DNA of 38,611 nucleotides from Deltaproteobacteria bacterium (GTDB lineage: Bacteria; UBA10199; SPLOWO2-01-44-7): positions 1-38,611 of the forward strand of contig JACRBV010000150.1 in the NCBI GenBank assembly GCA_016213065.1. Direction: 5' to 3'. This document shows positions 3,809 through 38,456 of the stretch, piece after piece. The notes beneath the pieces were generated by a model, which did no database searches, had not been told where the DNA came from, and worked only from the letters and a program-made list of their open reading frames with translations. The first letter of the stretch is position 1; the number at the start of each line of letters is the position of its first letter. Position numbers and translations under genes: made by a program.

Positions 3809-5295
3809 TAGATTTGCCTCTTTCTTCTGGAGGAGGGGAGTATCCCCAAAACTTCGCGGTATTTGGCCACAGTTCGCCTTGCAATGTCAACATGATGTTG
3901 GGTTTTTAAAATGGTTGTTATTTCCTGATCGCTCAAAGGTTTCTGAGGCGACTCTTGGGCGATCAATTTTTGGAGATGGTTTTTGACCACTTCAGAAGCA
4001 ATCCCTTCTCCTTCGTTATTTCCAAGGCTGGAATTGAAAAAATATTTGAGTTCAAAAATACCGCGTGGCGTATGAACATATTTGTTGGTGGTCACACGGC
4101 TGATGGTGGATTCATGCATGCCGATATCTTCTGCGACATCTTTTAGAACCATTGGTTTAAGAGACGTTGTCCCTTTGTCGAAAAATTCCTTCTGAAATTT
4201 GACGATACTTTTTGTTACCCTATATAAAGTGCGTTGGCGTTGGTGAATGCTTTTGATGAGCCACAAGGCTTGGCGCAATTTGTCCTGAATATATTCCTTG
4301 GCCTGATTGCCCACGGTTTCTCCCGCCATGATGGCGCGTCGATAAAGCGGACTGACAGTTAGTTTGGGAAGTCCATCATCGTTGAGGAAAACGACATATT
4401 CTTTTCCCATTTTTTGCACATGAACATCCGGAGTGATGTATTGCGGTTCCGCATTGGAGTAGGCTCGACCCGGTTTTGGATCAAGCTGATGAATGACTTT
4501 CGCAATTTCCTGAACATGTTCAAACGAGATGCCCAATGTTTTTGATATTTGTCTGTAATCGTGTCGCTCCAAATCTCCCATGTGATTCTCAATAATTTTC
4601 GTTAAAAGTTTTGCCTCGTCGCCGCCCATGTGGGCACATTGCAAAAGAAGACATTCTTTTAAATCTCGGGCGGCAACGCCGATGGGGTCGAAAGTTTGAA
4701 CTTTTTTGAGGCAAGCCTCTACTTGTTCTTTTGTCGCGTGGGTTCTTTCAGCAATTTCCTGAACGGTTGCCTGAAGATAACCGTCTTCATTGATGTTGCC
4801 AAGAATCTCCTCGGCAATGTTTGCCTCGATTCCCTTCAAACCGGAAAGACCCAACTGCCAGAAAAGGTGATCTTGAAGTGTCTCTGTTCTTGTGAGGGTG
4901 TTTTCGTAGGTGGGGAGATCGTCTCCATCTGTTTTGCGTTCAAAGGTGTAGGAGGGGATATTATTGCTTTCAATATAATTTTCCCAATCGAAATTGGCCG
5001 GTTCTTTTAATTCGCCGTCTTTATTTCCGATTTCGTCGGAGAGATGTTCGTGTCCCTTATCTTCTTCTTTTGCTTTTTCAAGTTGTTCGCCGTGGGATTC
5101 ATCTTCCGCCTGCAATTTTTGTGTTTCGCTTTCCTCATCTTCTTCTTCAAGACACGGGTTTTCAACGAGTTCTTTTTGGACGAGATTGGCTAATTCAAGA
5201 CGGGAGAGTTGTAATAGTTTGATTGCTTGTTGCAACTGGGGGGTTACAACCAGTTGCTGTGAGAGCTTCATGCTTTGTTTGATTTCAAGAGCCAT
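3808..5295 (-). CDS. rpoN: RNA polymerase sigma-54 factor
   Basis: Sigma-54 directs RNA polymerase to -24/-12 promoters and needs AAA+ activators. The 495-residue product is full length: an N-terminal Gln/Leu-rich activator-interaction region (LSQQLVVTPQLQQAIKLLQLSRLEL), an acidic linker (about residues 50-90), the core-binding domain, a helix-turn-helix near DIGMHESTISRVTTNKYVHT, and the RpoN box ARRTVAKYRE at about residues 472-481. The start ATG has GGAG 6 bases upstream. It is the first gene of the rpoN-hpf-ptsN-HEPN-MNT operon, with no lptB upstream in this window. Confidence 0.97.
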   Translation of the reverse strand: MALEIKQSMKLSQQLVVTPQLQQAIKLLQLSRLELANLVQKELVENPCLEEEDEESETQKLQAEDESHGEQLEKAKEEDKGHEHLSDEIGNKDGELKEPANFDWENYIESNNIPSYTFERKTDGDDLPTYENTLTRTETLQDHLFWQLGLSGLKGIEANIAEEILGNINEDGYLQATVQEIAERTHATKEQVEACLKKVQTFDPIGVAARDLKECLLLQCAHMGGDEAKLLTKIIENHMGDLERHDYRQISKTLGISFEHVQEIAKVIHQLDPKPGRAYSNAEPQYITPDVHVQKMGKEYVVFLNDDGLPKLTVSPLYRRAIMAGETVGNQAKEYIQDKLRQALWLIKSIHQRQRTLYRVTKSIVKFQKEFFDKGTTSLKPMVLKDVAEDIGMHESTISRVTTNKYVHTPRGIFELKYFFNSSLGNNEGEGIASEVVKNHLQKLIAQESPQKPLSDQEITTILKTQHHVDIARRTVAKYREVLGILPSSRRKRQI

Positions 5296-26526: not shown

Positions 26527-29500
26527 ATGCACCACAGCGACTTTGTTCATTTGCATCTTCATACCTACTACAGTCTCCTCGATGGGGCGTGTCCGATTCA
26601 GGCGCTTGCCGACAAAGTTCATGATTTGAAAATGCCTGCGGTGGCGATGACCGATCACGGTAATCTTTTTGGGGCGATCGAATTTTATCAGATCATGTCG
26701 AAAAAGGGGATCAAGCCGGTCATCGGTTGTGAAACTTATCTTATGACGGCCGGTTCGCGGCACAAAAAAGATACTTCGGGCGAAGGTTTTTTGTCTCACA
26801 TTACGCTTCTTTCAAAAAACAGAACCGGTTATCAAAATCTTTGCCGCCTCGTGAGCGCCGGACACTTGGAAGGGTTTTATTACAAACCGCGCATCGATAA
26901 AGAATTGTTTGAGCAATATAGCAGTGATCTCATCGCGTTGTCCGGGTGTTTGCGCGGTGAAATTCCCATGCTTCTGCAACGCGGAAATTTCGAAGGAGCC
27001 AAACAGGCGGCCCAGTATTATTCAAAACTTTTGGGAGAGGGAAATTTTTATCTCGAACTCACCGATTGCGGCATGCAGGAGCAGATCAACGTTCGTGAAG
27101 GGCTTTTAAGATTGGCCAAAGAGGTGGGGCTTCCCCTCGTCGCAACAAACGATGTTCATTATCTCCGGCAGGAAGGCTCTGCGGCACACGATGCGCTGGT
27201 TTGCATCCAGACCGGAAAACTGCTCTCCGACACGAACCGGATGAAAATGGATTCGGATCAGCTCTATCTCAAATCCGCGGAGGAGATGAAGGCGCTGTTT
27301 TCCGACGCACCCGAGGCGATTTCCAATTCCGTTTCCATCGCTGAAAAATGCAATCTCGAACTTGATTTCAAGACCTATCATTTCCCGCGCTTTCAGGTCC
27401 CTGACCAAAAAGATTTGCCGACTTATTTAACGGATCAGACGTCGCAGGGATTTGAAAAACGTTGGAAGGAAATTGAAATTCGTTTTGCCAGTTCTGAAAC
27501 GAAACCTTCAAGGGCGCTTTATCTGAAACGTCTCCACTCCGAATTGGAGATGATTAAAAAAACCGGTTTCGCCGGATATTTTTTGATCGTGGCGGACTTC
27601 ATAAGTTACGCCAAATCGCAAGGCATTCCCGTGGGCCCCGGGCGCGGTTCTGCGGCCGGTTCACTCGTGGTTTATTGTCTGGGAATTACCGACATCGACC
27701 CCGTGGAACATCATCTTTTGTTTGAGCGCTTCATCAATCCGGAGCGTGTAACTCAACCCGATATGGATATCGATTTTTGCATGCGTCGTCGCGATGAGGT
27801 TTTGCAATATGTGACGAAAAAATATGGCAACGTTTCGCAAATCATCACGTTTGGAAAAATGAAAGCCCGCGCCGTGGTGCGCGATGTGGGTCGCGTGATG
27901 GGAGTGCCGTATGGAGATGTCGATCGTCTTGCGAAATTAATTCCAAATGTTTTGGGAATGACACTGGAACTGGCTTTGAAAACCGAACCGCAGTTGAAAG
28001 ATCTTGCCGAAAAAGATGAAAAGATAAAAAAACTGATTGAAGTGGCCAAAATGCTCGAAGGTTTTCCGCGCCACGCCTCCACGCACGCCGCCGGTGTGGT
28101 GATTTCCGATCAACCGCTTGTCAATTTTCTTCCGCTCTATCGCGGTCAACATGATGAAACGGTGACTCAATACGATATGAAGGCCGTGGAAAAAGTGGGT
28201 CTCATCAAATTCGACTTTTTGGGACTCAAAACACTCACCGTTCTGGACGACACGATAAAACTGATCGAAAAAAATCACGGGAAAAAAATAGATTTGTCCA
28301 CGTTGCCCCTCGATGATCCGCTCGTTTATAAAATTCTTGGAGAAGCCGACACCTCCGGTGTTTTCCAGCTTGAATCTTCCGGGATGACCGATCTTGTGGC
28401 GAAGCTTAAACCAAACCGCTTTGCCGACCTCATCGCGTTAGTGGCTCTTTTCCGCCCGGGTCCTCTGGGCTCCGGCATGGTTGATGATTTTATTGCGAGA
28501 AAACACGGGCGCACTCCGATCCGTTATGAACTCCCTCAACTCGAAGAAATTTTGGCCGACACTTACGGCATCATTTTATATCAGGAACAGGTGATGCAAA
28601 TCGCAAGTAGGCTTGCCAATTTCAATCTAGGAGATGCCGACATTTTGCGCCGTGCCATGGGAAAAAAGAATGCCGAAGAGATGGCAAAGCAACGTCAGCA
28701 ATTTTTGTCCGGCGCCAAGGCCAATAAAATCCCCGCGCACAAAGCGGAAAAGATTTTTGATCTGATGGCCAAATTTGCCGAATACGGTTTCAATAAATGC
28801 GTTGTTGGAGAAACGGAACTGGTGGATGCCGTGACGGGTGAGATTTTTACAGTGGAAGATTTGGTAAGAGAGGGGCCCGGCCGAAAAATTTTCAGCTGTG
28901 ACGAAAAATTCAAAATAGTTCCGCGAAAAATTGAGGCAGTGATTTCTAATGGAAAGAAAAAAGTTTTTTTATTGAGAACCCGATTGGGTTATCAAATCCG
29001 GGCCACGGCCAACCACCCGTTTTTAGCTTTGGATGGCTGGAAGCATCTGAAAGAATTAAAGATAGGAGACAGGATTGCCACGCCCAGACGGTTATTTGTC
29101 AATACTCAGGAGGAATGGCCGGAGCACGAAGTTATTTCATTGGCATGGTTGATCTCGGAGGGTAATACCTGTCACCCCAATTCGTTGTATTTCTATAATA
29201 ATGATATTTCCCTTGTGAAGGATTTTGCGGCCCATATTGAAAAGTTTCCGTTCACCAAAGCACGGTGTTATCAGTGCAAAAATGGTCGTTGGGAAGTCTG
29301 TGCCAATACAGGGGTTCGGCTTCAGGCGGACACGGCCAGAAAGCGCGGACATCCCAGCAGGTCCGGTGCGTTTATTTGGGCTCAAAAATTGGGTCTGATT
29401 GGAAAGAAGGCTCGCGAGAAATCTATTCCTCAACAAGTATTTCGGCTGTCCCCGCGGCAATTAGCTATTTTTTTGGGTCGGCTCTGGTCTGGAGACGGTT

Positions 29501-31317
29501 TTATCTATGGATTGGATAATGCCGTTCCGTTTTACGCAACCTCATCGGAGAAATTGGCGGCTCAAGTGCAACATCTGCTACTCCGATTCGGCATTGTTTC
29601 GAGAGTCGCCATGAAAAATTTTTCATATAAGGGAGGAATTAAGAAGGGGTTTGCCGTTCTGGTTACGGGAGAAGGGTCGAGTCGGCTGTTTCTCGATTCG
29701 ATAGGGCCTTATCTAATTGGAAGAGATCAGCAAACCACTGCATTAAAAAAATATTTGAAAAAGAGGGGCGCAGGAAAGGGGTGTCGAGATACCATTCCGT
29801 GGGAAGTTAAATGTTGGATTAGAGAAGCAAAAGGGGCATCCGGCAAAACATGGGTGGAGATCGAAACGGAGACAGATTTATCCATGAGAGAATTTTATGG
29901 GGGGCATCATCTCTATAAAAGGGGCTTCAGGCGCAATACTGTTGAAAAATTGGGGCGATATTTTTATTCGGATAGATTGGCGGCTCTTGGTACTTCGGAC
30001 ATCTATTGGGATGAGATTGAAACAATTCAGCCCGAAGGGATTCGAGAAACTTATGATTTAACTATAGAAAAAAATCATAATTTTGTGGCTGACGGAATCA
30101 TCGTTCATAATTCTCACAGTACCGCGTATGCAATGGTTGCCTATCAGACCGCCTATTTCAAAGCTCATTACCCAACCGAATACATGGCCTGTCTGCTCAC
30201 AACGGAAATGGGGAATACCGACAAGGTTTTATTTTACATGCAGGATTGCGCGGCGCACGACATTCAGATTTTGCCTCCGGATTTAAACGAGAGCGAACTT
30301 CCTTTTTCGGTGGTGGCAGACAAAAAAATCCGCTTCGGTCTGGCGGCCGTGAAAAACGTGGGGGAGGGTGCGGTGGAGATCATTGTAGAAAGCCGCCAAA
30401 AAGAAGGTCCCTTTTATTCTCTTTTCGATTTTTGTGAGCGCGTGGATTCCAGAAAATCAAACCGCCGCGTGGTGGAGAGTCTTATCAAAGCCGGTGCGTT
30501 TGATTTTACCAAGGCAAGGCGTTCGCAGTTGATGGCGGTGCTGGATGTCGCCATCGAGTATGGAGATCGCCGCCAAAAAGATAAACTGAGAGGACAGTTT
30601 AGTTTGTTGGATCAATTCAGGACCATGGACAATGGACAATGGACCATGGACCAAAAACTTTCCGATATTGAGGAATGGTCGGAGAGGGTGAGACTTCAGT
30701 TTGAAAAAGAAGTTTTGGGATTTTATCTCACCGGGCATCCTCTGGCTCAATTTGAAAAACTGCTGGCGCAATACGCCACCGCCGATTGTCTTCAGGTGGC
30801 CGAACTTCCCGACAAACGGGAGATCCGCGTCGCCGGCGTTGTTGCGAGCCTCAAAGAAATCACCACCAAAAAAGGGGAGAGGATGGGTTTCATCACTCTC
30901 GAAGATCTGAAGGGTTCCGTAGAGGTGGTGGTTTTTCCGGAGACGTATCAGAAATCTCACACATGGCTTAAAGAAGAGAGACCCATTCTCCTTGTTGGCA
31001 ATGTGGATGAGGGAGAAGAAACCAACAAGATCATCGCCAAACAAATTTTTCTTCTGGAAGAAGCACCGCAACAATTGACCAAAACAATTCACTTTCGCTT
31101 AAGCAGTGTGGAGGCCTCTCCAAAACAATTGCAGGCGCTGAAATCGGTCCTCGGTCGCTATCGCGGGAATTGCGCGGCCTACCTGCATCTCATCATTCCC
31201 AACGAATCCGAAACGGTCCTCAAACTTCCCGACGATCTCAAAGTCGATCCCATCCCCCAACTCGTAGAATCCGTCCAAAAACTCTTCGGCCACAACATAA
31301 CGTGGTTTCAAAACTGA
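26527..31317 (+). CDS. dnaE: DNA polymerase III alpha subunit containing an intein
   Basis: This is the replicative polymerase catalytic subunit. The precursor has 1596 residues; without the 438-residue intein it has 1158, close to the usual DnaE length. In order there is an N-terminal PHP domain (FVHLHLHTYYSLLDGA, AMTDHGNLFG), the polymerase C-family core with GPGRGSAAGSLV and PDMDIDFCMRRRDEV, the third Asp region IKFDFLGLKTL, helix-hairpin-helix sequences, and a C-terminal OB fold (IRVAGVVASLKEITTKKGERMGFITLED). The intein sits in the highly conserved stretch FAEYGFNK/SHSTAYA. A heptad repeat encodes the loop RTMDNGQWTMDQ near residue 1370. The ATG has AGAGG 5 bases upstream and follows guaA closely. 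Confidence 0.97.
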   Translation: MHHSDFVHLHLHTYYSLLDGACPIQALADKVHDLKMPAVAMTDHGNLFGAIEFYQIMSKKGIKPVIGCETYLMTAGSRHKKDTSGEGFLSHITLLSKNRTGYQNLCRLVSAGHLEGFYYKPRIDKELFEQYSSDLIALSGCLRGEIPMLLQRGNFEGAKQAAQYYSKLLGEGNFYLELTDCGMQEQINVREGLLRLAKEVGLPLVATNDVHYLRQEGSAAHDALVCIQTGKLLSDTNRMKMDSDQLYLKSAEEMKALFSDAPEAISNSVSIAEKCNLELDFKTYHFPRFQVPDQKDLPTYLTDQTSQGFEKRWKEIEIRFASSETKPSRALYLKRLHSELEMIKKTGFAGYFLIVADFISYAKSQGIPVGPGRGSAAGSLVVYCLGITDIDPVEHHLLFERFINPERVTQPDMDIDFCMRRRDEVLQYVTKKYGNVSQIITFGKMKARAVVRDVGRVMGVPYGDVDRLAKLIPNVLGMTLELALKTEPQLKDLAEKDEKIKKLIEVAKMLEGFPRHASTHAAGVVISDQPLVNFLPLYRGQHDETVTQYDMKAVEKVGLIKFDFLGLKTLTVLDDTIKLIEKNHGKKIDLSTLPLDDPLVYKILGEADTSGVFQLESSGMTDLVAKLKPNRFADLIALVALFRPGPLGSGMVDDFIARKHGRTPIRYELPQLEEILADTYGIILYQEQVMQIASRLANFNLGDADILRRAMGKKNAEEMAKQRQQFLSGAKANKIPAHKAEKIFDLMAKFAEYGFNKCVVGETELVDAVTGEIFTVEDLVREGPGRKIFSCDEKFKIVPRKIEAVISNGKKKVFLLRTRLGYQIRATANHPFLALDGWKHLKELKIGDRIATPRRLFVNTQEEWPEHEVISLAWLISEGNTCHPNSLYFYNNDISLVKDFAAHIEKFPFTKARCYQCKNGRWEVCANTGVRLQADTARKRGHPSRSGAFIWAQKLGLIGKKAREKSIPQQVFRLSPRQLAIFLGRLWSGDGFIYGLDNAVPFYATSSEKLAAQVQHLLLRFGIVSRVAMKNFSYKGGIKKGFAVLVTGEGSSRLFLDSIGPYLIGRDQQTTALKKYLKKRGAGKGCRDTIPWEVKCWIREAKGASGKTWVEIETETDLSMREFYGGHHLYKRGFRRNTVEKLGRYFYSDRLAALGTSDIYWDEIETIQPEGIRETYDLTIEKNHNFVADGIIVHNSHSTAYAMVAYQTAYFKAHYPTEYMACLLTTEMGNTDKVLFYMQDCAAHDIQILPPDLNESELPFSVVADKKIRFGLAAVKNVGEGAVEIIVESRQKEGPFYSLFDFCERVDSRKSNRRVVESLIKAGAFDFTKARRSQLMAVLDVAIEYGDRRQKDKLRGQFSLLDQFRTMDNGQWTMDQKLSDIEEWSERVRLQFEKEVLGFYLTGHPLAQFEKLLAQYATADCLQVAELPDKREIRVAGVVASLKEITTKKGERMGFITLEDLKGSVEVVVFPETYQKSHTWLKEERPILLVGNVDEGEETNKIIAKQIFLLEEAPQQLTKTIHFRLSSVEASPKQLQALKSVLGRYRGNCAAYLHLIIPNESETVLKLPDDLKVDPIPQLVESVQKLFGHNITWFQN
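28798..30111 (+). other. DnaE intein with LAGLIDADG homing endonuclease
   Basis: The intein spans residues 758-1195 of the DnaE precursor (438 residues). It starts with Cys (CVVGETELVDAVTG, block A) and has block B with TANHPFLALDGW. Two LAGLIDADG-type dodecapeptides follow: SLAWLISEGN near residue 868 and FLGRLWSGDGF near residue 978. It ends with block F and G, ETYDLTIEKNHNFVADGIIVHN. The next extein residue is Ser, so splicing is chemically complete (Cys1, His-Asn end, Ser+1). The region between the second dodecapeptide and block F is probably DNA-binding. It is contiguous, unlike the split cyanobacterial DnaE intein, which sits 3 residues earlier. All splicing residues appear intact. Confidence 0.95.
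30620..30653. repeat. GTCCATG-type heptad repeat inside dnaE
   Basis: The reverse complement of the GTCCATG family (units GACCATG, GACAATG, GACAATG, GACCATG) is translated in frame as part of a variable loop in DnaE (residues RTMDNGQWTMD). It lies between the SLLDQF and EEWSE segments. Confidence 0.8.
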
Positions 31318-31469: not shown

Positions 31470-32012
31470 TCAGCTCTGTTCCCATAAAAGGATTCCCTTT
31501 CTTATCGTTTCATAAAAAACGCTGTTATCTTGCGGCAGAGACAGCCACTCCGCGCTGGATTTGACGACGATCTGCAGTTTTTCCTCAAATTTGCGCGCGA
31601 TTTTAAAGATGGCGTCGGCAGTTTCCGATACTACGAAAAGGTCGCTGTCGCTTTCTGAAGTATTATCCCCGACCGCTCTGCTACCAAAAAGAATTATTTT
31701 TGAACTTTGCGGTTTCAAATGTTCCACAAGCTCCTGAACATGCAGAATGTTGCTTGCGATCTTCATGGTATGAATGAACGGGGACTCGATAAGGCGGTTC
31801 ATGACCATATTGCCGCGCACCGTCCTTTCAACAAGGCCCATGCGTGTCAGCTCACGCAATGACATATTGACGGCAGAACGCCCGACGCCTTTTACCCGCG
31901 CTGTTATCTCGGTGTCATTGAGCTTAAGGTCGGAATTCTGCAAAAGGAAATCAAGGACCTTGAGTTTCGGTGTCGAAAAAAGCCCTTTCCATATATAAAG
32001 CTTATTTACCAT
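31470..32012 (-). CDS. Winged-helix / MNT nucleotidyltransferase fusion
   Basis: This 180-residue protein has an N-terminal winged helix-turn-helix (about residues 13-75; EITARVKGVGRSAVNMSLRELTRMGLVERT) joined to a nucleotidyltransferase domain. The signature is FG110-S111-RAVG with D122 and D124 in SDSDLFVV. Such fusions probably combine self-regulation and an antitoxin-like enzyme. The ATG at 32012 (MVNKLYIWKG) is chosen. It overlaps a CCATATATATGG palindrome and has a TATTAT -10 just 8 bases upstream. A HEPN remnant follows on the same strand. Confidence 0.8.
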   Translation of the reverse strand: MVNKLYIWKGLFSTPKLKVLDFLLQNSDLKLNDTEITARVKGVGRSAVNMSLRELTRMGLVERTVRGNMVMNRLIESPFIHTMKIASNILHVQELVEHLKPQSSKIILFGSRAVGDNTSESDSDLFVVSETADAIFKIARKFEEKLQIVVKSSAEWLSLPQDNSVFYETIRKGILLWEQS

Positions 32013-32026
32013 ATATATGGATAATA
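32009..32026 (-). promoter_or_regulatory. Palindrome and -10 at the start of the wHTH-nucleotidyltransferase gene
   Basis: The 12-base perfect palindrome CCATATATATGG (32009-32020) covers the start codon. A TATTAT -10 box abuts it (32021-32026). A TTGCAT further out (19-base spacing) could be the -35. Autoregulation by the winged helix is plausible. Confidence 0.45.
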
Positions 32027-32086
32027 TTCCATAATTGCGGAAAATATGCAACGATTGTTTGAGCAAATAAAATGTTCATTTTTATT

Positions 32087-32230
32087 GTCATTCCTGCGAA
32101 GCTTGTCCCTGCAAGCAGTAGGCAGGGAGCAGGGATCCAGTAATTTATTTCTGGTTCCCGACTTTCGTCGGGACGACGTCTGGATCCCCGTCGGAGTTTA
32201 CCCCGTACCGCGATACGGGGCGGGGATGAC
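32087..32230. repeat. REP-like hairpin element between two toxin-antitoxin-like loci
   Basis: The element begins GTCATTCCTGCGAAG and ends GCGGGGATGAC. It contains internal hairpins CCCGACTTTCGTCGGG and CCCCGTACCGCGATACGGGG, plus two GGATCC-containing arms. It is of the GTCATTCCCGCGAAAGCGGGAATCC class. The 306-base gap 32013-32318 holds only this element and the two flanking promoters. Confidence 0.7.
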
Positions 32231-32253
32231 ATACTAAAAGATGATTCGCTATA

Positions 32254-32296
32254 GGTGTAATTTTTGTTTGACAAATTACACCACATTTTTTATTCT
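32254..32296 (+). promoter_or_regulatory. vapBC promoter and operator
   Basis: TTGACA (32268-32273) and TATTCT (32291-32296) are separated by 17 bases. A perfect 10-base inverted repeat, GGTGTAATTT (32254-32263) with AAATTACACC (32273-32282), overlaps the -35. This is the expected form for autoregulation by a VapBC complex. The leader to the vapB ATG is about 16 bases and carries GGGAGG. Confidence 0.75.
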
Positions 32297-32318
32297 TATT
32301 CCCGGGCTGGGAGGTACC

Positions 32319-32525
32319 ATGGGGCTCGCAAATATCAAGATTCCAACCAAAGAAATTGAGGAACTGAAAAAATACACCGAGGAGAGCACGGGCCAGAAAG
32401 CCGTTCAAAAAGCACTGGTTTATTTTCTTCGGGAAGCCAGACAGCGCCGCATTGTGGATGTCTTGAAAGAAGTTTCCTTTCAACAATCCTTTAATCCACT
32501 CAAATTAAGACGAAATGAAAGATAA
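32319..32525 (+). CDS. VapB-type antitoxin
   Basis: This 68-residue protein starts MGLANIKIPTKEIEELKKY, with a short helix-rich DNA-binding N terminus (TGQKAVQKALVYFLREARQRR). A basic tail follows, FNPLKLRRNER, that would bind the toxin. The ATG at 32319 has GGGAGG 5 bases upstream; the longer open frame is rejected because it runs through the operator. It overlaps the PIN toxin gene by 11 bases, so the pair is coupled. Confidence 0.8.
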   Translation: MGLANIKIPTKEIEELKKYTEESTGQKAVQKALVYFLREARQRRIVDVLKEVSFQQSFNPLKLRRNER

Positions 32526-32901
32526 ATATATTCTTGATTCATCGATCTGGATTGAACTGGAGCGCCAGACGCCTGCCATCTGCAAACAGTTCCTCCCTCT
32601 GATTCAGAAAAACAGGGTTTGTCTGGTGGATGTTATTGTGGCTGAAGTTTTACGCGGGACGAAAACGAAAAAAGATTTTCAAATCCTCAAAAAAGCCTTC
32701 GAAAATTTTCGCTGGTTGCGTGGTTCCTGGCAAAAAGTCGCCGAACTGGCTTTTCAAACGGCCCAAAGGGGTTTTCATCCTCCTCTTGTTGATTTGTATA
32801 TTGCGCAATGTGCCCTCGACAATAAAAGAACTGTGGTTACCCAAGACAAACATTTTTCGCATATTGCCCGTGTCACTTCTCTTGAGTTGATTTTGGTCTG
32901 A
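32515..32901 (+). CDS. VapC-type PIN domain toxin (RNase)
   Basis: This 128-residue PIN domain protein has the four acidic residues expected at a metal site: D8 (YILDSSIWIE), E44 (VIVAEVLRGT), D93 (PPLVDLYIAQ) and D111 (VVTQDKHF). VapC toxins cut RNA, often initiator tRNA or 23S rRNA. All catalytic positions are intact. Its partner antitoxin is directly upstream. Confidence 0.9.
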   Translation: MKDKYILDSSIWIELERQTPAICKQFLPLIQKNRVCLVDVIVAEVLRGTKTKKDFQILKKAFENFRWLRGSWQKVAELAFQTAQRGFHPPLVDLYIAQCALDNKRTVVTQDKHFSHIARVTSLELILV

Positions 32902-32956: not shown

Positions 32957-34213
32957 ATGTCACATCCGGCTTTCAAGCCAAGTTCCAAAAAAGAACGCGT
33001 TTTCCTCACGGGTGTTCGGCGTCGTGGTCAAACCCATCACGAATTTGAAGCCTCCCGCAGTGAGTTGAATCGGCTTATCGATACGGCCGGTGGGCAGGTG
33101 GTGGCACAAGCCTCTCAGGAAATTGAACATCCCAATCCGAAATCTTTTCTGGGGAAGGGGAAGGTGCAGGAAATTCAGAATCATATTCGTCAAACCTCTG
33201 TCGATAGTGTGGCGATTGACGATGAACTGACCCCAAATCAAAATCATAATTTGGAAGATGCGTGGGGCGTGAAGGTCGTTGACCGGACCGCCGTGATTCT
33301 CGACATCTTCGCCAAACGCGCCCACACAAAAGAAGGGCGTCTGCAAGTGGAGTTGGCGCAGTTGCAATATGTTCAATCAAGACTCAAAGGGATGTGGTCG
33401 CACTTCAGCAAACAGACGGGGGGCATTGGCACGCGGGGTCCCGGCGAAACGCAGTTGGAAGTGGATCGACGCCGCATTCGTGAGCGAATCACTCTTTTGA
33501 GAGATCGCTTGAAAGATGTCGAGACGCATCGCGAAATTCACCGCCTGCGCAGAGAGGCGGTTCCGTTCCCGCTTTTTTCGCTCGTCGGTTATACCAACGC
33601 GGGCAAATCCACTTTGATGAACGCGGTCACGAAAGCCGGAATTTTTGTTGAAGACAAACTTTTCGCGACACTCGACCCCACCGTGCGGCGTTTGAAACTC
33701 CCAAGCGGCCGGCAAGCTCTGTTGGCGGATACCGTGGGTTTCATCCGCAAACTTCCGCATACATTGATTGAAGCTTTCAAAGCCACTTTCGAAGAAATTG
33801 CCCATTCCGATTGTCTGATTCATGTGGTCGATGCAAGCGACCCCGAAATGCATAAACAGATTGAAACGGTGGAACGGGTGCTAACGGAATTGAATCTAGG
33901 CCAAAAACCCGTGATTGTTGTCTTCAACAAAAGTGATCAGGGGATGATGGGTTTCACGGGTCTGCAAGGAATTTCGGTTTCCGCACTCAAGGGATATGGC
34001 ATTGAAAAATTGTTGGAAGAGATGGATACCACAGCCCGTCGCTCGTGCCAGAAAGTCCGGTTTTGCATTCCCTACAGCCGCGGCGATATTCTTTCGACCC
34101 TTTATTCCATGGGTCACATATTGGAAGTAAAACACGAACCCCACGGCGTTGAAGTCGACTGCGAAATCAACCCCAAATTTGTCCAGAGATATCAGGAATA
34201 TCTGGCGGAATGA
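32957..34213 (+). CDS. hflX: Ribosome-splitting GTPase HflX
   Basis: HflX is a TRAFAC GTPase that splits stalled or heat-damaged 70S ribosomes. The 418-residue product has the N-terminal HflX domain (FLGKGKVQEI, DDELTPNQNHNLEDAWGVKVVDRTAVILDIF, GPGETQLEVDRRRI). The GTPase domain has G1 GYTNAGKST, G3 DTVGFIRKLP and G4 FNKSD. The C terminus is a small domain ending QRYQEYLAE. The ATG at 32957 is chosen for its place next to the promoter; an in-frame GTG lies 24 bases upstream. Its last 66 bases are partly duplicated at 35416-35480. Confidence 0.95.
   Translation: MSHPAFKPSSKKERVFLTGVRRRGQTHHEFEASRSELNRLIDTAGGQVVAQASQEIEHPNPKSFLGKGKVQEIQNHIRQTSVDSVAIDDELTPNQNHNLEDAWGVKVVDRTAVILDIFAKRAHTKEGRLQVELAQLQYVQSRLKGMWSHFSKQTGGIGTRGPGETQLEVDRRRIRERITLLRDRLKDVETHREIHRLRREAVPFPLFSLVGYTNAGKSTLMNAVTKAGIFVEDKLFATLDPTVRRLKLPSGRQALLADTVGFIRKLPHTLIEAFKATFEEIAHSDCLIHVVDASDPEMHKQIETVERVLTELNLGQKPVIVVFNKSDQGMMGFTGLQGISVSALKGYGIEKLLEEMDTTARRSCQKVRFCIPYSRGDILSTLYSMGHILEVKHEPHGVEVDCEINPKFVQRYQEYLAE
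34139..34205 (+). repeat. hflX 3' end, left copy of a direct repeat flanking the accessory module
   Basis: The last part of hflX, from CCCCACGGCG to GAATATCTGG, reappears at 35416-35480 with one substitution, a 2-base gap and a few late differences. The two copies lie 1277 bases apart and flank the wHTH/nucleotidyltransferase module. Confidence 0.85.
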
Positions 34214-34221
34214 GGAATGTC

Positions 34222-34257
34222 ATTTCGGCGAAAGCCGAAATTCAGAAGTGACGTTTT
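34222..34257 (+). terminator. Possible hflX terminator hairpin
   Basis: An 8-base stem, ATTTCGGC with GCCGAAAT around a GAAA loop (34222-34241), lies 8 bases after the hflX stop. An outer GTCA/TGAC pairing and a run of five T (34253-34257) follow. The T run is not directly after the stem, so the call is moderate. Confidence 0.4.
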
Positions 34258-34264
34258 TGCCCAA

Positions 34265-34313
34265 TAAGTGTCCGACACTTACAGGGGGGGTCTCTGTAAG
34301 TGTCGGACACTTA
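34265..34313. repeat. Perfect 20-bp inverted repeat with self-palindromic arms
   Basis: The left arm at 34265-34284 and right arm at 34294-34313 are exact reverse complements around a 9-base G-rich spacer. Each arm itself contains the palindrome AAGTGTC-C/G-GACACTT. It could be a REP-like site recognised by a RAYT-type transposase, a recombination site or a cruciform. It sits inside the segment bounded by the hflX 3' repeats. Confidence 0.8.
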
Positions 34314-34332
34314 GTGAGAGGCGACTGACCCC

Positions 34333-34373
34333 TTGCCATTTAACGCTTGTTTTTTGTATAAAATCTTATACAA
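34333..34373 (+). promoter_or_regulatory. Promoter and operator of the wHTH/nucleotidyltransferase module
   Basis: TTGCCA (34333-34338) is followed after 18 bases by TATAAA (34357-34362). A perfect palindrome, TTGTATAA with TTATACAA around AATC (34354-34373), covers the -10, just upstream of the ATG at 34382. The first gene encodes a winged-helix protein, so autorepression is likely. Confidence 0.65.
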
Positions 34374-34381
34374 TTTTATGT

Positions 34382-34762
34382 ATGAAAAGTGTCTTTGATC
34401 TATTTACATCAAGAGCGAGGGTAATGATCCTAAGGACGCTTTATTATCAAAAGCGGGCCATACCGCTTCGCCATGTTTCTTCCATTTCAAATCTGCCGAT
34501 CTTTTCGGTTCAAAATGCCATCCATTCACTTGTGGACGACAATCTGATCATCAGGACGGAGAAAGACAACAATGTCCTGTTTGAACTCAATGAAAAATAT
34601 TTTTTATATAGTATTTTAGAACAATTTTTTATTCTTGAAGCAAACAATCGAATTTCTTTGGAAGCCAAGTTGCTCTATCAAAAGGCAAGAGCGACACTGG
34701 AATTCGCGAACACGGCGAATATTTTTTTCAGGCGTGTCAAACAAAAGAGGGTTACTCAATGA
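34382..34762 (+). CDS. Winged-helix transcriptional regulator of a nucleotidyltransferase module
   Basis: This 126-residue protein has a winged helix-turn-helix over residues 1-75 (FDLFTSRARVMILRTLYYQKRAIPLRHVSSI, NAIHSLVDDNLIIRTEKDNNVLFELNEKY) and a helical C-terminal part rich in basic residues. The ATG at 34382 (MKSVFDLF) is chosen because the domain starts there and the palindromic operator lies upstream; the longer open frame runs through the inverted repeat. It overlaps the nucleotidyltransferase gene by ATGA. The pair resembles an AbiE-like or other regulator/NTase toxin-antitoxin architecture, but no specific family was recognised. Confidence 0.75.
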   Translation: MKSVFDLFTSRARVMILRTLYYQKRAIPLRHVSSISNLPIFSVQNAIHSLVDDNLIIRTEKDNNVLFELNEKYFLYSILEQFFILEANNRISLEAKLLYQKARATLEFANTANIFFRRVKQKRVTQ

Positions 34763-35409
34763 ACCTGATCATGTTTTTCAAGGAGGTTGTTAAAACACTT
34801 CAGGCCAGCAATGCGGATTATGCCTTGGCCGGAGGGCTGGTTGCCTCGGTTTACAGAAAAGATGAAAGGACCACCAACGATTTGGATTTTCTGATATTCT
34901 CAGGTAAAAAAACACAAGAAATGGCGTCTTCAATTATCAGACAATTCGGATTGGAGCCCCACGTCATCAGAAAGGCCGATCTTGAGGGAGGGCCGATGTT
35001 CGCAATCAAAAGGGGAAACACACCCCCTTATATTGTAGCCGGAAGGGCAAAAAAGGATGAAAAAAAAATCGGTCTCGATTTCATCTTGCCAAATATGCCA
35101 TGGTTCGAAGAGTCAATCAAAAGGGCCAAGTTTAACGAAATAGATTTCGGCTTTGGTCCCGTTGCCTGTCTGACAAAAGAAGATCTTATTATTGCCAAAT
35201 TATATTCATTACAGAATGACCAGAGCCGTTTCAACGACCTCGATGACCTAAAATCCATCCTTCAGGCTGGCCATGACATCGATATACCCTATATTTGCGG
35301 TCAAATGCAGAAACTTGAATTGTCGGTTCCAGACCTCATTAAAGATTTTGTGCCCAAGCCAATTCTTTTGACCTCAAAAAGAGTTCGTCGAGAATTTAAA
35401 AATCGTTAA
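34759..35409 (+). CDS. AbiEii-like nucleotidyltransferase
   Basis: This 216-residue protein has a nucleotidyltransferase fold of the AbiEii/DUF6036-like kind. It shows the G25-G26 signature (ALAGGLVASVY), the metal Asp pair D41 and D43 (TTNDLDFLI) and a third Asp, D107, in IGLDFIL. The later EDLIIAKLYSLQND and DLDDLKSIL helices are typical of this superfamily. In the AbiE system such an enzyme is the toxin, paired with a wHTH antitoxin, matching this gene order. The substrate is unknown. It is coupled to the upstream wHTH gene. Confidence 0.8.
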   Translation: MNLIMFFKEVVKTLQASNADYALAGGLVASVYRKDERTTNDLDFLIFSGKKTQEMASSIIRQFGLEPHVIRKADLEGGPMFAIKRGNTPPYIVAGRAKKDEKKIGLDFILPNMPWFEESIKRAKFNEIDFGFGPVACLTKEDLIIAKLYSLQNDQSRFNDLDDLKSILQAGHDIDIPYICGQMQKLELSVPDLIKDFVPKPILLTSKRVRREFKNR

Positions 35410-35415
35410 AAACGA

Positions 35416-35480
35416 CCCCACGGCGTTGAAGTGGACTGCGAAATCAACCCCAAATTTGTCCAGATATCAAGAATACGTGG
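35416..35480 (+). repeat. Duplicated hflX 3' end, right copy
   Basis: It starts 7 bases after the nucleotidyltransferase stop and repeats the codons for the last 22 or so residues of HflX, now as non-coding sequence. It has one substitution early, a 2-base deletion, and divergence at the end. Together with the copy at 34139-34205 it marks the boundary of an inserted or duplicated segment. Confidence 0.85.
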
Positions 35481-35534
35481 TATAAAAATCTTTCCTATTT
35501 TTGACCTTCAGTATAAGCCAATCTTATGTGTGAA

Positions 35535-35665
35535 TGAGTATCCGGCTTTGCCGGTGCGAATGAAAGGGGTGCGGGGGGAATGAGCCACGAAGTGGCGAGT
35601 CAAGGCCAGCCGAGCTGGCCGCGAAGCAAATTCAAAGAATTTGTGGAGCCAAGCCGACCCCCCGA
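35535..35665. repeat. GC-rich hairpin cluster
   Basis: Successive short hairpins occur here: CCGGC-TTT-GCCGG (about 35541), GCCACGAAGTGGC, GGCCAGCCGAGCTGGCC and AAATTC-AAAG-AATTT. They are bounded by GCGGGGGG on the left and CCCCCCG on the right. It looks like a composite repeat element and supplies no convincing gene, although a longer start for the next frame runs through it. Confidence 0.5.
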
Positions 35666-35669
35666 TATT

Positions 35670-35969
35670 ATGAAAAATAAAAAAACGTTACTGCTTGTCT
35701 GTTCTTTGGTGTTGTTTCTGTCGTCATCAGTATTTGCCGGCACGAAGGTTAAAAACGTGATGAGACAACGCGTGGAAGTTCATTTGACTGGCGGAAGAGT
35801 CCTCAGCATTCTTCCGGCAGAAATCGTTACCGTTGCGAATGATGATTTTGAAAGTCCCCAATTGAGGGCATTGATTGAAAAAGGGGATCTCGTTGTAATG
35901 CAGGACGAAAGCACAAAAAAACCGTCCCTCGATATAAAATTCGGAAAAACTGGAAAAGTCCATAAATAG
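35670..35969 (+). CDS. Small exported hypothetical protein
   Basis: This 99-residue protein begins MKNKKTLLLVCSLVLFLSSS and has a likely Sec cleavage site after VFA (around residues 23/24). The mature part is about 75 residues, beta-rich (VEVHLTGGRVLSILPAEIVTV), then Lys-rich at the end. No family was recognised. The ATG at 35670 is chosen for its signal peptide; the 30 codons upstream come from the hairpin cluster. It lies 66 bases before leuS. Confidence 0.65.
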   Translation: MKNKKTLLLVCSLVLFLSSSVFAGTKVKNVMRQRVEVHLTGGRVLSILPAEIVTVANDDFESPQLRALIEKGDLVVMQDESTKKPSLDIKFGKTGKVHK

Positions 35970-36035: not shown

Positions 36036-38456
36036 ATGCAAACCTATAATCCGGGCGTTTTGGAAGTGAAGTGGCAGAAATATTGGGAAGAGAAAAAACT
36101 TTTCAAAGCTGTCGAAGAGTCCAAAAAGAAGAAATACTATATCTTGGGAATGCTTCCCTATCCCTCGGGCCGCATTCATATGGGGCATGTGCGCAATTAT
36201 ACCGTTGTCGATGTGTCAGCCCGCTTCAAAAGAATGAACGAATTTTCCGTGTTACATCCGATGGGTTGGGATGCCTTTGGGCTTCCGGCTGAAAATGCGG
36301 CGATCAAAAACAAAATTCACCCGGCCAAATGGACTTACGAAAATATTGATGTGATGCGCACCCAACTAAAACGGATGGGATATTCGATCGATTGGGACAG
36401 GGAATTTGCAACCTGCGATGCCGACTATTATCGCTGGGAGCAGTTTCTTTTTCTGAAGATGTTCCAAAAGGGGATGGTCTATCGAAAAGAAAAACTTTTA
36501 AATTGGTGCGATGGTTGTAAAACCGTACTGGCCAATGAACAAGTCAAAGAAGGGAAATGCTGGCGCTGTTCCACGTTGGTCGCGCAAAAGCCGCTGGAGC
36601 AATGGTTTTTCAAAATCACCGATTACGCCGAAGAACTGCTGAACGACATTGACCTCAAACTGCAAGGCTGGCCCGACCGCGTGAAGACAATGCAGAAAGA
36701 ATGGATCGGCAGATCGGATGGAGCCCTGATAAAATTCAACATCCAAAATTCAAAATCCAAAATTGAGATTTTTACCACCCGCCCCGACACGCTTTACGGC
36801 GCCACTTTCATGAGTCTTGCGTGCGAACATCCCCTGCTGATGGAACTGGCACAAAAAGGGGGAAAACAAAAAGAGGTGCAAGCCTTTGTCGAAAAAACAT
36901 CCCATTTGGAACGGATGAAGCGCCTGACCGGAGAGTATGAAAAAGAGGGAGTTTTCACGGGATGCTATTGCATCAATCCTGTCACACAAGAAAAAATGCC
37001 GATTTACGCGGCCAATTTTGTTTTGATGGATTACGGAACCGGAGCGGTGATGGCCGTTCCCGCACATGACCAAAGAGATTTTGAATTTGCAAAGAAATAT
37101 AAATTGCCGCTCCGACTTGTGATTCAGCCGGAAGGGGAAAAGTTGGTCGTGGAAAAATTGGAAGCGGCTTACGAAGGTCCCGGAAAGCTTGTCGCTTCTG
37201 CCGAGTTTGATGGTTTGGATAATGAAGAGGCCAAGAAAAAAATCACGCAAAAATTAAAAAAGATGGGTGTGGGAGATGTGACCGTGCATTTTAAATTGAA
37301 AGACTGGTGTCTCTCCCGCCAGCGCTATTGGGGTGCGCCAATCCCAATCATCTATTGCGCCGATTGCGGAACCGTGCCCGTGCCCGAAAATGATTTGCCC
37401 GTGAAACTCCCCACCGATGTTCCTTTCACGGGAGAGGGGGGTTCGCCGCTTTCCAAAGTTGAAAAATTTGTGAATGTAAAATGCCCTGAGTGCGGCAAAA
37501 AAGCGCGGCGTGAAACCGACACGATGGACACGTTTGTCGAATCGAGTTGGTATTTGCTCCGTTATGTCTCTCCCAAATATGACAAGGGCATGGTCGACCC
37601 GAAGAAAATTGATTACTGGATGCCGATTGACCAATACATCGGAGGCATTGAACACGCCGTGGGGCATTTGATTTATTCGCGTTACTTCACAAAAGTCATG
37701 CGTGATTTGGGGATGATTAAACTCAATGAACCCGTCACAAATTTGATGTGTCAGGGAATGGTTTGTCTGGGCGGCTCTGCGATGAGTAAATCAAAAGGGA
37801 ATGTGGTCGACCCCGACACCATCATCGAAAAATATGGAGCTGACACAGCTCGTTTGTTTATCCTCTTTGCGGCCCCCGTTGAGAAAGATCTTGAATGGAA
37901 TGATGCCGCGGTTGAGGGAATGTTTCGGTTTTTGGGAAGAGTGTGGCGGCTCGTAACCGAAACCAAAAATCAAAAAGCAAAAATCAAAAATAAAGAAGAA
38001 GAATGGCGCAATAAAACCATCAAGAAAGTAACCGAAGATTTGGAAAAATTTCATTTCAACACGGCGATTTCCTCACTGATGGAATATGTAAATTACTTAC
38101 AGACCATGGACCATGGACCAAGGACTATGGACTTGGAAACCATTGTGATTCTTTTGTCACCGCTTGCACCGCACATGGCTGAGGAATTATGGCAGCACTT
38201 GGGGCACAAACAAAGTATCTTACAAGAGCCGTGGCCAATGTGGGATGAGAAGGCGCTTGTGGCTTCCACGATGTTGATTGTTGTGCAGGTTAATGGAAAA
38301 TTGCGCGGCAATATGGAAGTTCCCGTAGATGAAAAAGAAGAAATGATCAAAAGCCAAGCCCTTGCCCTTGAAAAAGTGAAACCATTTCTGGATGGCAAAC
38401 AAATTGTGAAAACAATCTACGTTCCCAAAAAATTGATGAACGTTGTTGTAAAATAA
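36036..38456 (+). CDS. leuS: Leucyl-tRNA synthetase
   Basis: This class Ia synthetase charges tRNA-Leu. The 806-residue product has the HIGH motif as HMGH in [17 protein letters not shown] (about residue 48) and zinc-binding Cys pairs ([13 protein letters not shown]). The CP1 editing domain has [13 protein letters not shown] and [14 protein letters not shown], and a second zinc-like module lies at [18 protein letters not shown]. The catalytic loop is AMSKSKGN at residue 583; the first Lys of KMSKS is Ala, but the later Lys is kept. Three heptad repeat arrays are translated in variable loops (residues about 233, 643 and 690). holA follows after 1 base. Confidence 0.97.
36732..36765. repeat. 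AAATCCA-type heptad array inside leuS
   Basis: Successive 7-base units (AAATTCA, ACATCCA, AAATTCA, AAATCCA, AAATTGA) are translated as [12 protein letters not shown] just before the conserved FTTRPDTL of the editing domain. Confidence 0.7.
37963..37993. repeat. A-rich heptad array inside leuS
   Basis: Units of AAAATCA/AAAAGCA type, the same family as at 9571 and 15898, are translated as [10 protein letters not shown] in a surface-loop position between the RVWRLV and TIKKV segments of the anticodon-binding region. Confidence 0.75.
38101..38132. repeat. GTCCATG-type heptad array inside leuS
   Basis: Units GACCATG, GACCATG, GACCAAG and GACTATG (the reverse complement of the intergenic GTCCATG family) are translated as [10 protein letters not shown] between YVNYLQ and LETIVILL. 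This replaces the variable loop of the anticodon-binding domain. Confidence 0.8.

Follow-up and report, generated by a model that had tools for sequence, protein, structure and literature searches.

Toxin-antitoxin-type modules behind hflX and other conserved genes appear to be captured repeatedly, leaving the former gene end as a stump

Some genomic islands and integrative elements use the 3' ends of protein-coding genes as their sites, such that the gene end is restored and the original end is displaced to the far side of the element. Two other kinds of rearrangement also lie close to the one considered here. Restriction-modification systems have been described as undergoing "insertion with long target duplication" (Nobusato et al. 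2000 and Furuta et al. 2010, as cited in PMC3874152 and PMC3031569), and type VI effector-immunity modules of V. cholerae are proposed to be displaced stepwise by homology-facilitated illegitimate recombination (PMC5361080). In this report, we analyze contig JACRBV010000150.1 (38,611 nucleotides [nt], referred to below as the window) from assembly GCA_016213065.1 of a Deltaproteobacteria bacterium, in which a winged-helix gene and an AbiEii-type nucleotidyltransferase (NTase) gene lie between the conserved gene hflX and a second copy of its 3' end. The best reading of this arrangement, and of similar ones that we found in the host genome and its relatives, is that toxin-antitoxin-type modules have repeatedly been captured behind conserved genes, with the former gene end left as a stump. 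Integrase-like movement is probably not the explanation.

The hflX gene (32957-34213, + strand; TIGR03156 GTP_HflX, E = 1.2e-135) is a complete open reading frame that bears the near, functional copy of the tail (34128-34213, +), ending ..QRYQEYLAE-stop. The original prediction for this stretch, which was based on its letters and open reading frames, had reported near-identical tail copies 1277 nt apart, and we recovered them: positions 34138-34190 and 35415-35467 form a direct repeat that is identical at 51 of 53 positions (96%), and gapped alignment widens it to 34128-34200 and 35407-35475 with three small indels. When the hflX tail was searched against the host genome, the far copy was the sole other match (E = 1.8e-4), and a repeat of this length and identity is far beyond chance. 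No copy of the tail was found on viral contigs. The far copy (35407-35484, +) begins exactly at the stop codon of the NTase gene and has lost its reading frame through a 2-nt deletion; beyond the indel it reads ..RYQEYVV-stop, as opposed to ..RYQEYLAE-stop in hflX, and terminates at its own TAA codon. The first 18 nt of the two tails are identical, and over their aligned length they differ by two substitutions in addition to the indels. As argued below, the far copy is best viewed as the remnant of a diverged allele.

The insert bounded by the two tails (34214-35409) contains just two genes, neither of them encoding a recombinase, which agrees with the earlier observation that no integrase is present. 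The first gene (34382-34762, +) encodes a winged-helix protein of 126 amino acids, a putative antitoxin and autorepressor. The second (34759-35409, +) encodes an AbiEii/MenT-type NTase of 216 amino acids, the putative toxin, and overlaps the first by the sequence ATGA at 34759. We judge both genes to be real because homologous pairs exist at six other loci. The proposal that they constitute a toxin-antitoxin-like pair is supported by family membership, fold and motifs. The NTase scores above the Pfam cut-off for AbiEii (PF08843; 25.5 versus 22.5 bits), as do four of four homologues scanned, and structure-based searching, which had been suggested as a check, identified MenT1 of M. tuberculosis (8an4/8an5) as its closest solved relative by fold as well as by sequence. 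The structure model is of low confidence (mean predicted local distance difference test [pLDDT] score of 63), and the fold match counts as support only in combination with sequence. Alignment of homologues revealed the invariant residues G25, R37, T39, D41, D43, K147, R157 and D163. The MenT1 residues mutated in PMC11375011 (T39, D41, K137 and D152) are all matched in the alignment, by T39, D41, K147 and D163 of the NTase.

The model of the partner (mean pLDDT 87) shows a MarR/ArsR-like winged helix-turn-helix followed by a long single C-terminal helix. No AbiEi match was obtained for this protein in Pfam or PADLOC, and the dedicated C-terminal antitoxin domain that characterizes AbiEi-type proteins is absent; we therefore call the pair AbiE-like rather than AbiE. 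Identity to the aligned relatives is 56-61% for the NTase and 33-38% for the winged-helix protein (four relatives in which the partner lies upstream of the NTase), as expected if the partner evolves faster. By homology to MenT1, the NTase would modify tRNA ends, and the winged-helix protein is predicted to repress the pair and to neutralize the NTase. A candidate site for such repression is the palindrome TTGTATAAAATCTTATACAA (34354-34373), which lies immediately before the winged-helix start codon and is palindromic at 18 of 20 positions, a match equaled in 1 of 500 shuffles. Seven of seven loci of the gene pair have an AT-rich TTGTACAAA..TTTGTACAA palindrome, which precedes the winged-helix start by about 6 to 21 nt; at one of these the automatic pick was a different palindrome, yet GTACAAAAATTTGTACA is present. 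The pair thus displays the bicistronic layout with an inverted-repeat operator, and autoregulatory binding at this operator is putative. An operator and a promoter had both been predicted here. The first is conserved, as described, whereas a search upstream of the pair yielded no sigma-70-type promoter-like site; the operator suggests that the pair may nonetheless have a promoter of its own.

Comparison with relatives indicates that the place behind hflX was formerly unoccupied. In the window, the interval between the two genes runs from the end of hflX at 34213 to the start of leuS at 36036. In G001, G003 and G004, which represent three further genera of the family, 12-41 nt separate the hflX stop from the leuS start, as anticipated if the site was once empty; these empty-site comparators belong to different genera only. 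In a fourth genus (G002; locus L083, 5310-6378), an unrelated AbiEii gene (E = 1.4e-15) and a small partner are located directly after hflX in the opposite orientation. No tail copy was found at that locus. The place behind hflX has therefore been entered at least twice by NTase modules. Across the family, AbiEii matches number 4-10 per genome.

Homologues of the gene pair itself are located elsewhere. Six other loci were identified, four in genomes from other families of the class and two more from a scan of genome contigs, which returned nothing with a single NTase as query and five loci when based on an alignment; one of the two additional loci comes from a record titled Bradymonadales. None of these six loci is flanked by repeats, and relatives of the pair were found neither on viral contigs nor on plasmids. 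The original prediction of a mobile cassette that re-creates the gene end therefore stands in part: the insertion leaves the hflX end intact and the pair is found beside other genes, but never there between copies of a gene end. With six of six loci free of repeats, we at first viewed the hflX scar as a one-off, until a survey of other AbiEii loci overturned this view. As a separate observation, at locus L021 (genome G024) the winged-helix and NTase genes form an in-frame fusion, and a TGA stop interrupts the NTase.

We found the same scar in the host genome, its family and one distant classmate, behind five genes other than hflX. The scan for tail copies covered 453 kb of the host genome (G000) and 419 kb of G003. 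On host contig C143, an AbiE pair (AbiEi_4, AbiEii) lies between a ChsH2-like OB-fold gene and a copy of the last 33 nt of that gene; the two tails differ by the synonymous changes GTG/GTC and GCG/GCA, and their stops are TGA and TAA. Tail copies accompany the OB-fold orthologue in four genera, including that of the host, and are stacked in one. The gene is followed by HEPN-MNT and a tail copy in G004 and G005, and by an MNT gene and a tail copy in G003; in G004 the first tail copy is succeeded by a toxin of the RelE family, beyond which lies another tail copy. Behind the same gene, G002 carries RelBE with no tail copy, and G001 is empty. The remaining cases involve genes of unrelated function. 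In the host, the mannose-1-phosphate guanylyltransferase gene is followed by a DUF4143 ATPase and then by a tail copy that retains a different but sensible end, QHDLSLAPEVVNQLRQK-stop. In G003, an HtrA-like protease and an NTase follow dnaE, whose tail is copied at the NTase stop codon; glmS is followed by an AbiEi_2 protein and a tail copy of 244 nt. In the distant classmate (G015), nadE is followed by HEPN-MNT, a further gene and the tail copy, with a VapBC-like pair beyond.

This recurrence at several genes suggests that modules spread by hitching onto conserved gene ends. The general idea of modules behind re-created ends thus holds more widely than had been proposed, for other toxin-antitoxin types and five other genes, but is not special to the winged-helix/NTase pair. 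An unrelated genome (G057) yielded no tail copies in 400 kb. Gene-start copies, sought in G000 and G003 as a mirror-image control, comprised only tandem paralogues (such as L156 and L145 in the G003 set) or weak matches. Two candidates were not counted: a repeat flanking an AbiE pair on contig C62 of G002, parts of which recur in that genome and which looks like a dispersed repeat, and a tail copy behind an ampG-like gene (L161), which comprises 43 nt with indels and an insert of unclear content. In addition, 44 nt of an abiEi promoter and start (as at 2707-2750 of locus L091) recur at 4745-4788 of the same locus, between RelE-like and HEPN-MNT-like pairs; module starts can therefore also remain as stumps.

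The differences between near and far tails are informative as to their origin. Across nine tail pairs, 55 of 69 differences fall at third codon positions (P = 2e-15), and the bias persists when glmS is left out (22 of 30, P = 7e-6). Relative to the proportion of 0.46 expected if one copy were selected and the other decayed neutrally, the excess is also pronounced (P = 1e-8 for all pairs and 0.002 without glmS). The glmS pair by itself contributes 34 synonymous codon changes and 1 non-synonymous one. Several far copies, moreover, have a stop codon of their own and encode a C-terminus that differs from that of the gene but still makes sense. From the third-position bias we conclude that the far copy represents the tail of an allele that had diverged and was once functional, and not a local duplicate that decayed. 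The far copies behind the OB-fold gene are always nearest to the gene of the same genome; the two alleles therefore derive from closely related sources. Identity to the gene in the G004 stack is 86% for the middle tail and 99% for the outer one, a pattern that mixed donors would produce.

Given these findings, we consider it probable that a type IV-like (AbiE/MenAT-like) module was acquired at the hflX 3' end through recombination anchored on the gene itself. Donor DNA from a close relative would have carried that relative's hflX end and then the module. Homologous recombination within hflX would have swapped the resident gene end for that of the donor, and the other end of the incoming DNA would have joined inside the resident hflX tail without homology. 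The old tail would then persist beyond the module as a non-coding stump, and with hflX left intact the cost of the event would be low. The same process would have taken place repeatedly in the family, each time with a different toxin-antitoxin module or conserved gene, and successive events would stack modules with old tails between them. One-sided recombination of this sort is the most economical reading; it would correspond to the homology-facilitated illegitimate recombination suggested for the V. cholerae immunity arrays (PMC5361080) and would yield the layout seen in insertion with long target duplication. Far copies begin at the module end or slightly past it, where few bases are shared (GTTAAAA versus GTAAAA in hflX, AACT in dnaE).

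A number of points weigh against this account. The identity of the resident tail is indirect, given that neither a same-genus empty site nor a donor allele occurs among the genomes compared. The hflX pair alone offers its two aligned substitutions and indels, and allele replacement rests on the pooled set, which is dominated by glmS; the expected value of 0.46 is our own rough estimate. Sampling of G000 favored AbiEii loci and contigs that bear repeats. Junctions lie 0 to about 95 nt from the module ends, and several are tighter than a random break predicts unless surplus DNA was later lost. Finally, no ComEC homologue was found in the host genome, though relatives have one, and natural transformation is therefore unsupported as the entry route here.

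We weighed four other explanations. One that we consider unlikely is the shuttling of cassettes, whereby RecA recombination between tails would excise a circle that re-enters the same gene end in another cell through a single crossover. Units of tail, module and tail do exist and stack, the unequal tails of G004 are what mixed origins would give, and the glmS pair includes a roughly 40-nt identical block within diverged sequence that could be a crossover point. However, when genera are compared, the modules behind one gene belong to several types or are distant relatives at best, and the first junction between tail and module would still require an illegitimate event. Somewhat harder to sustain is a site-specific recombinase acting in trans on an element that carries a substitute gene end, in which case the far copy would be the displaced original end (attR). 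Such an enzyme would account for gene 3' ends as targets, for the restored gene and the displaced end on the far side, and would be compatible with synonymous differences in a carried substitute end. It is nonetheless improbable: at least six unrelated target genes lack a common core, the far copies start at different points of each tail, and the copies range in length from 29 to 244 nt. The glmS and dnaE far copies, furthermore, diverge from their first bases, where a crossover core should be identical, and no recombinase gene is present among the inserts read.

Local duplication, which the original prediction had offered as an alternative, would require that slippage or repair synthesis copied the hflX tail past a module already present, followed by decay. 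The 96% identity of the two hflX tails and the lost frame of the far copy fit this scheme, but once hflX is pooled with the eight further cases the predominance of synonymous differences disfavors it. Different but sensible ends in far copies (VV-stop for hflX and QHDLSLAPEVVNQLRQK-stop for the guanylyltransferase) and the association with toxin-antitoxin-type modules also count against it, making it quite improbable. Misassembly is least credible of all: the source is a metagenome-assembled genome of 1.8 Mb in 155 contigs, and strain mixtures may misjoin at gene ends, but the two copies are not identical, each has unique flanking sequence, and separate assemblies, those of 10 and 20 contigs among them, show the same arrangement. 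A broader extension of capture behind conserved genes, which we regard as possible though doubtful, is an integron-like lifestyle in which unrelated toxin-antitoxin types stack as tail-flanked cassettes behind conserved genes and move as units between strains via tail recombination. If this were true, conserved gene ends would act as a general, integrase-free attachment system for defense genes in the lineage.

The interval between hflX and leuS contains further elements that went unmentioned in the initial reading. Upstream of the operator, a dispersed palindromic repeat element (34262-34316) consists of paired AAGTGTCCGACACTT palindromes with 9 nt between arms; AAGTGTCCGACACTT has 14 exact matches in the host genome, 12 of them outside the window, and a similar element is present on contig C55. 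Beyond the tail-bounded insert lie a second dispersed intergenic repeat (about 35529-35652, +), with 36 matches listed in the host genome, and a small gene between the far tail and leuS (about 35670-35969), whose product begins like a signal peptide and matches no family above the cut-off. The interval therefore contains more than one addition. Together with a repeat at 32069-32233, these make three different dispersed, partly palindromic intergenic repeats, each with many genome copies and each adjoining an added module. The dnaE-hflX interval harbors a fused winged-helix/nucleotidyltransferase gene (31473-32066, -) as well as a small gene followed by a PIN-domain gene, a VapBC-like arrangement (32241-32901, +). 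Both modules are absent from the short dnaE-hflX gap of G004, and counting the hflX insert there are three toxin-antitoxin-like modules around hflX. The dnaE gene itself (26527-31317) encodes 1596 amino acids and contains an intein-like insertion (..FNKCVVGETELVDAVTGE....VHNSHSTAYA..), which is lacking in the 1163-amino-acid orthologue of G004. No Rfam family was detected in 30.0-38.6 kb of the window.

How transposase-free chromosomal toxin-antitoxin modules travel is an old open question, and the scars described here are readable in this regard. Each module has the new end of a conserved gene on one side and the old end on the other; arrival order and donor relatedness can be read from the old ends. 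Any genome collection can easily be searched for this tail-copy signature. Our literature search found neither hflX as an integration site nor toxin-antitoxin modules paired with homology-facilitated recombination. As in islands that use gene 3' ends, the gene regains its end, and the original one comes to lie beyond the insert. A distinction from these islands is the lack of an integrase and of a fixed core, together with inserts of about 0.5-3 kb that hold mostly one module and a multiplicity of target genes.

The gene pair resembles AbiE (PMC3985639) and MenAT (PMC10435456, PMC11375011) in its Pol-beta-type NTase with conserved glycines, an Arg four residues and a Thr two residues before the DhD motif (the latter at the position of MenT1 T39), and downstream Lys and Asp residues. 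It shares with them an upstream winged-helix partner, overlapping genes and an inverted-repeat operator. It differs in the 126-amino-acid, MarR-like partner with its long C-terminal helix and in the distant NTase, which is just over the Pfam AbiEii cut-off.

With respect to restriction-modification insertions, as these are recounted in the later papers that cite them, the likeness lies in small selfish modules, long target repeats of variable size (on the order of 100 bp) and no linked mobile element apparent. Flanking target repeats and a single-copy empty site in a relative (G001, G003 and G004), by which long target duplication is recognized, are both present here. In our case the modules are instead of toxin-antitoxin type and lie at the 3' ends of genes that remain intact. 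The synonymous differences between the repeats favor recombination with a diverged allele over copying of the target. Synonymous bias separates these two possibilities, a distinction that those papers' accounts of restriction-modification insertions leave open. A further parallel is provided by the V. cholerae arrays (PMC5361080), where, as proposed for the present modules, a conserved upstream anchor is combined with a non-homologous join at the opposite side, old 3' parts pushed downstream, and stacking. The anchor in V. cholerae is part of the toxin system, whereas the anchors here are housekeeping genes unrelated to the module, and all that is displaced is a short stump of the anchor-gene end.

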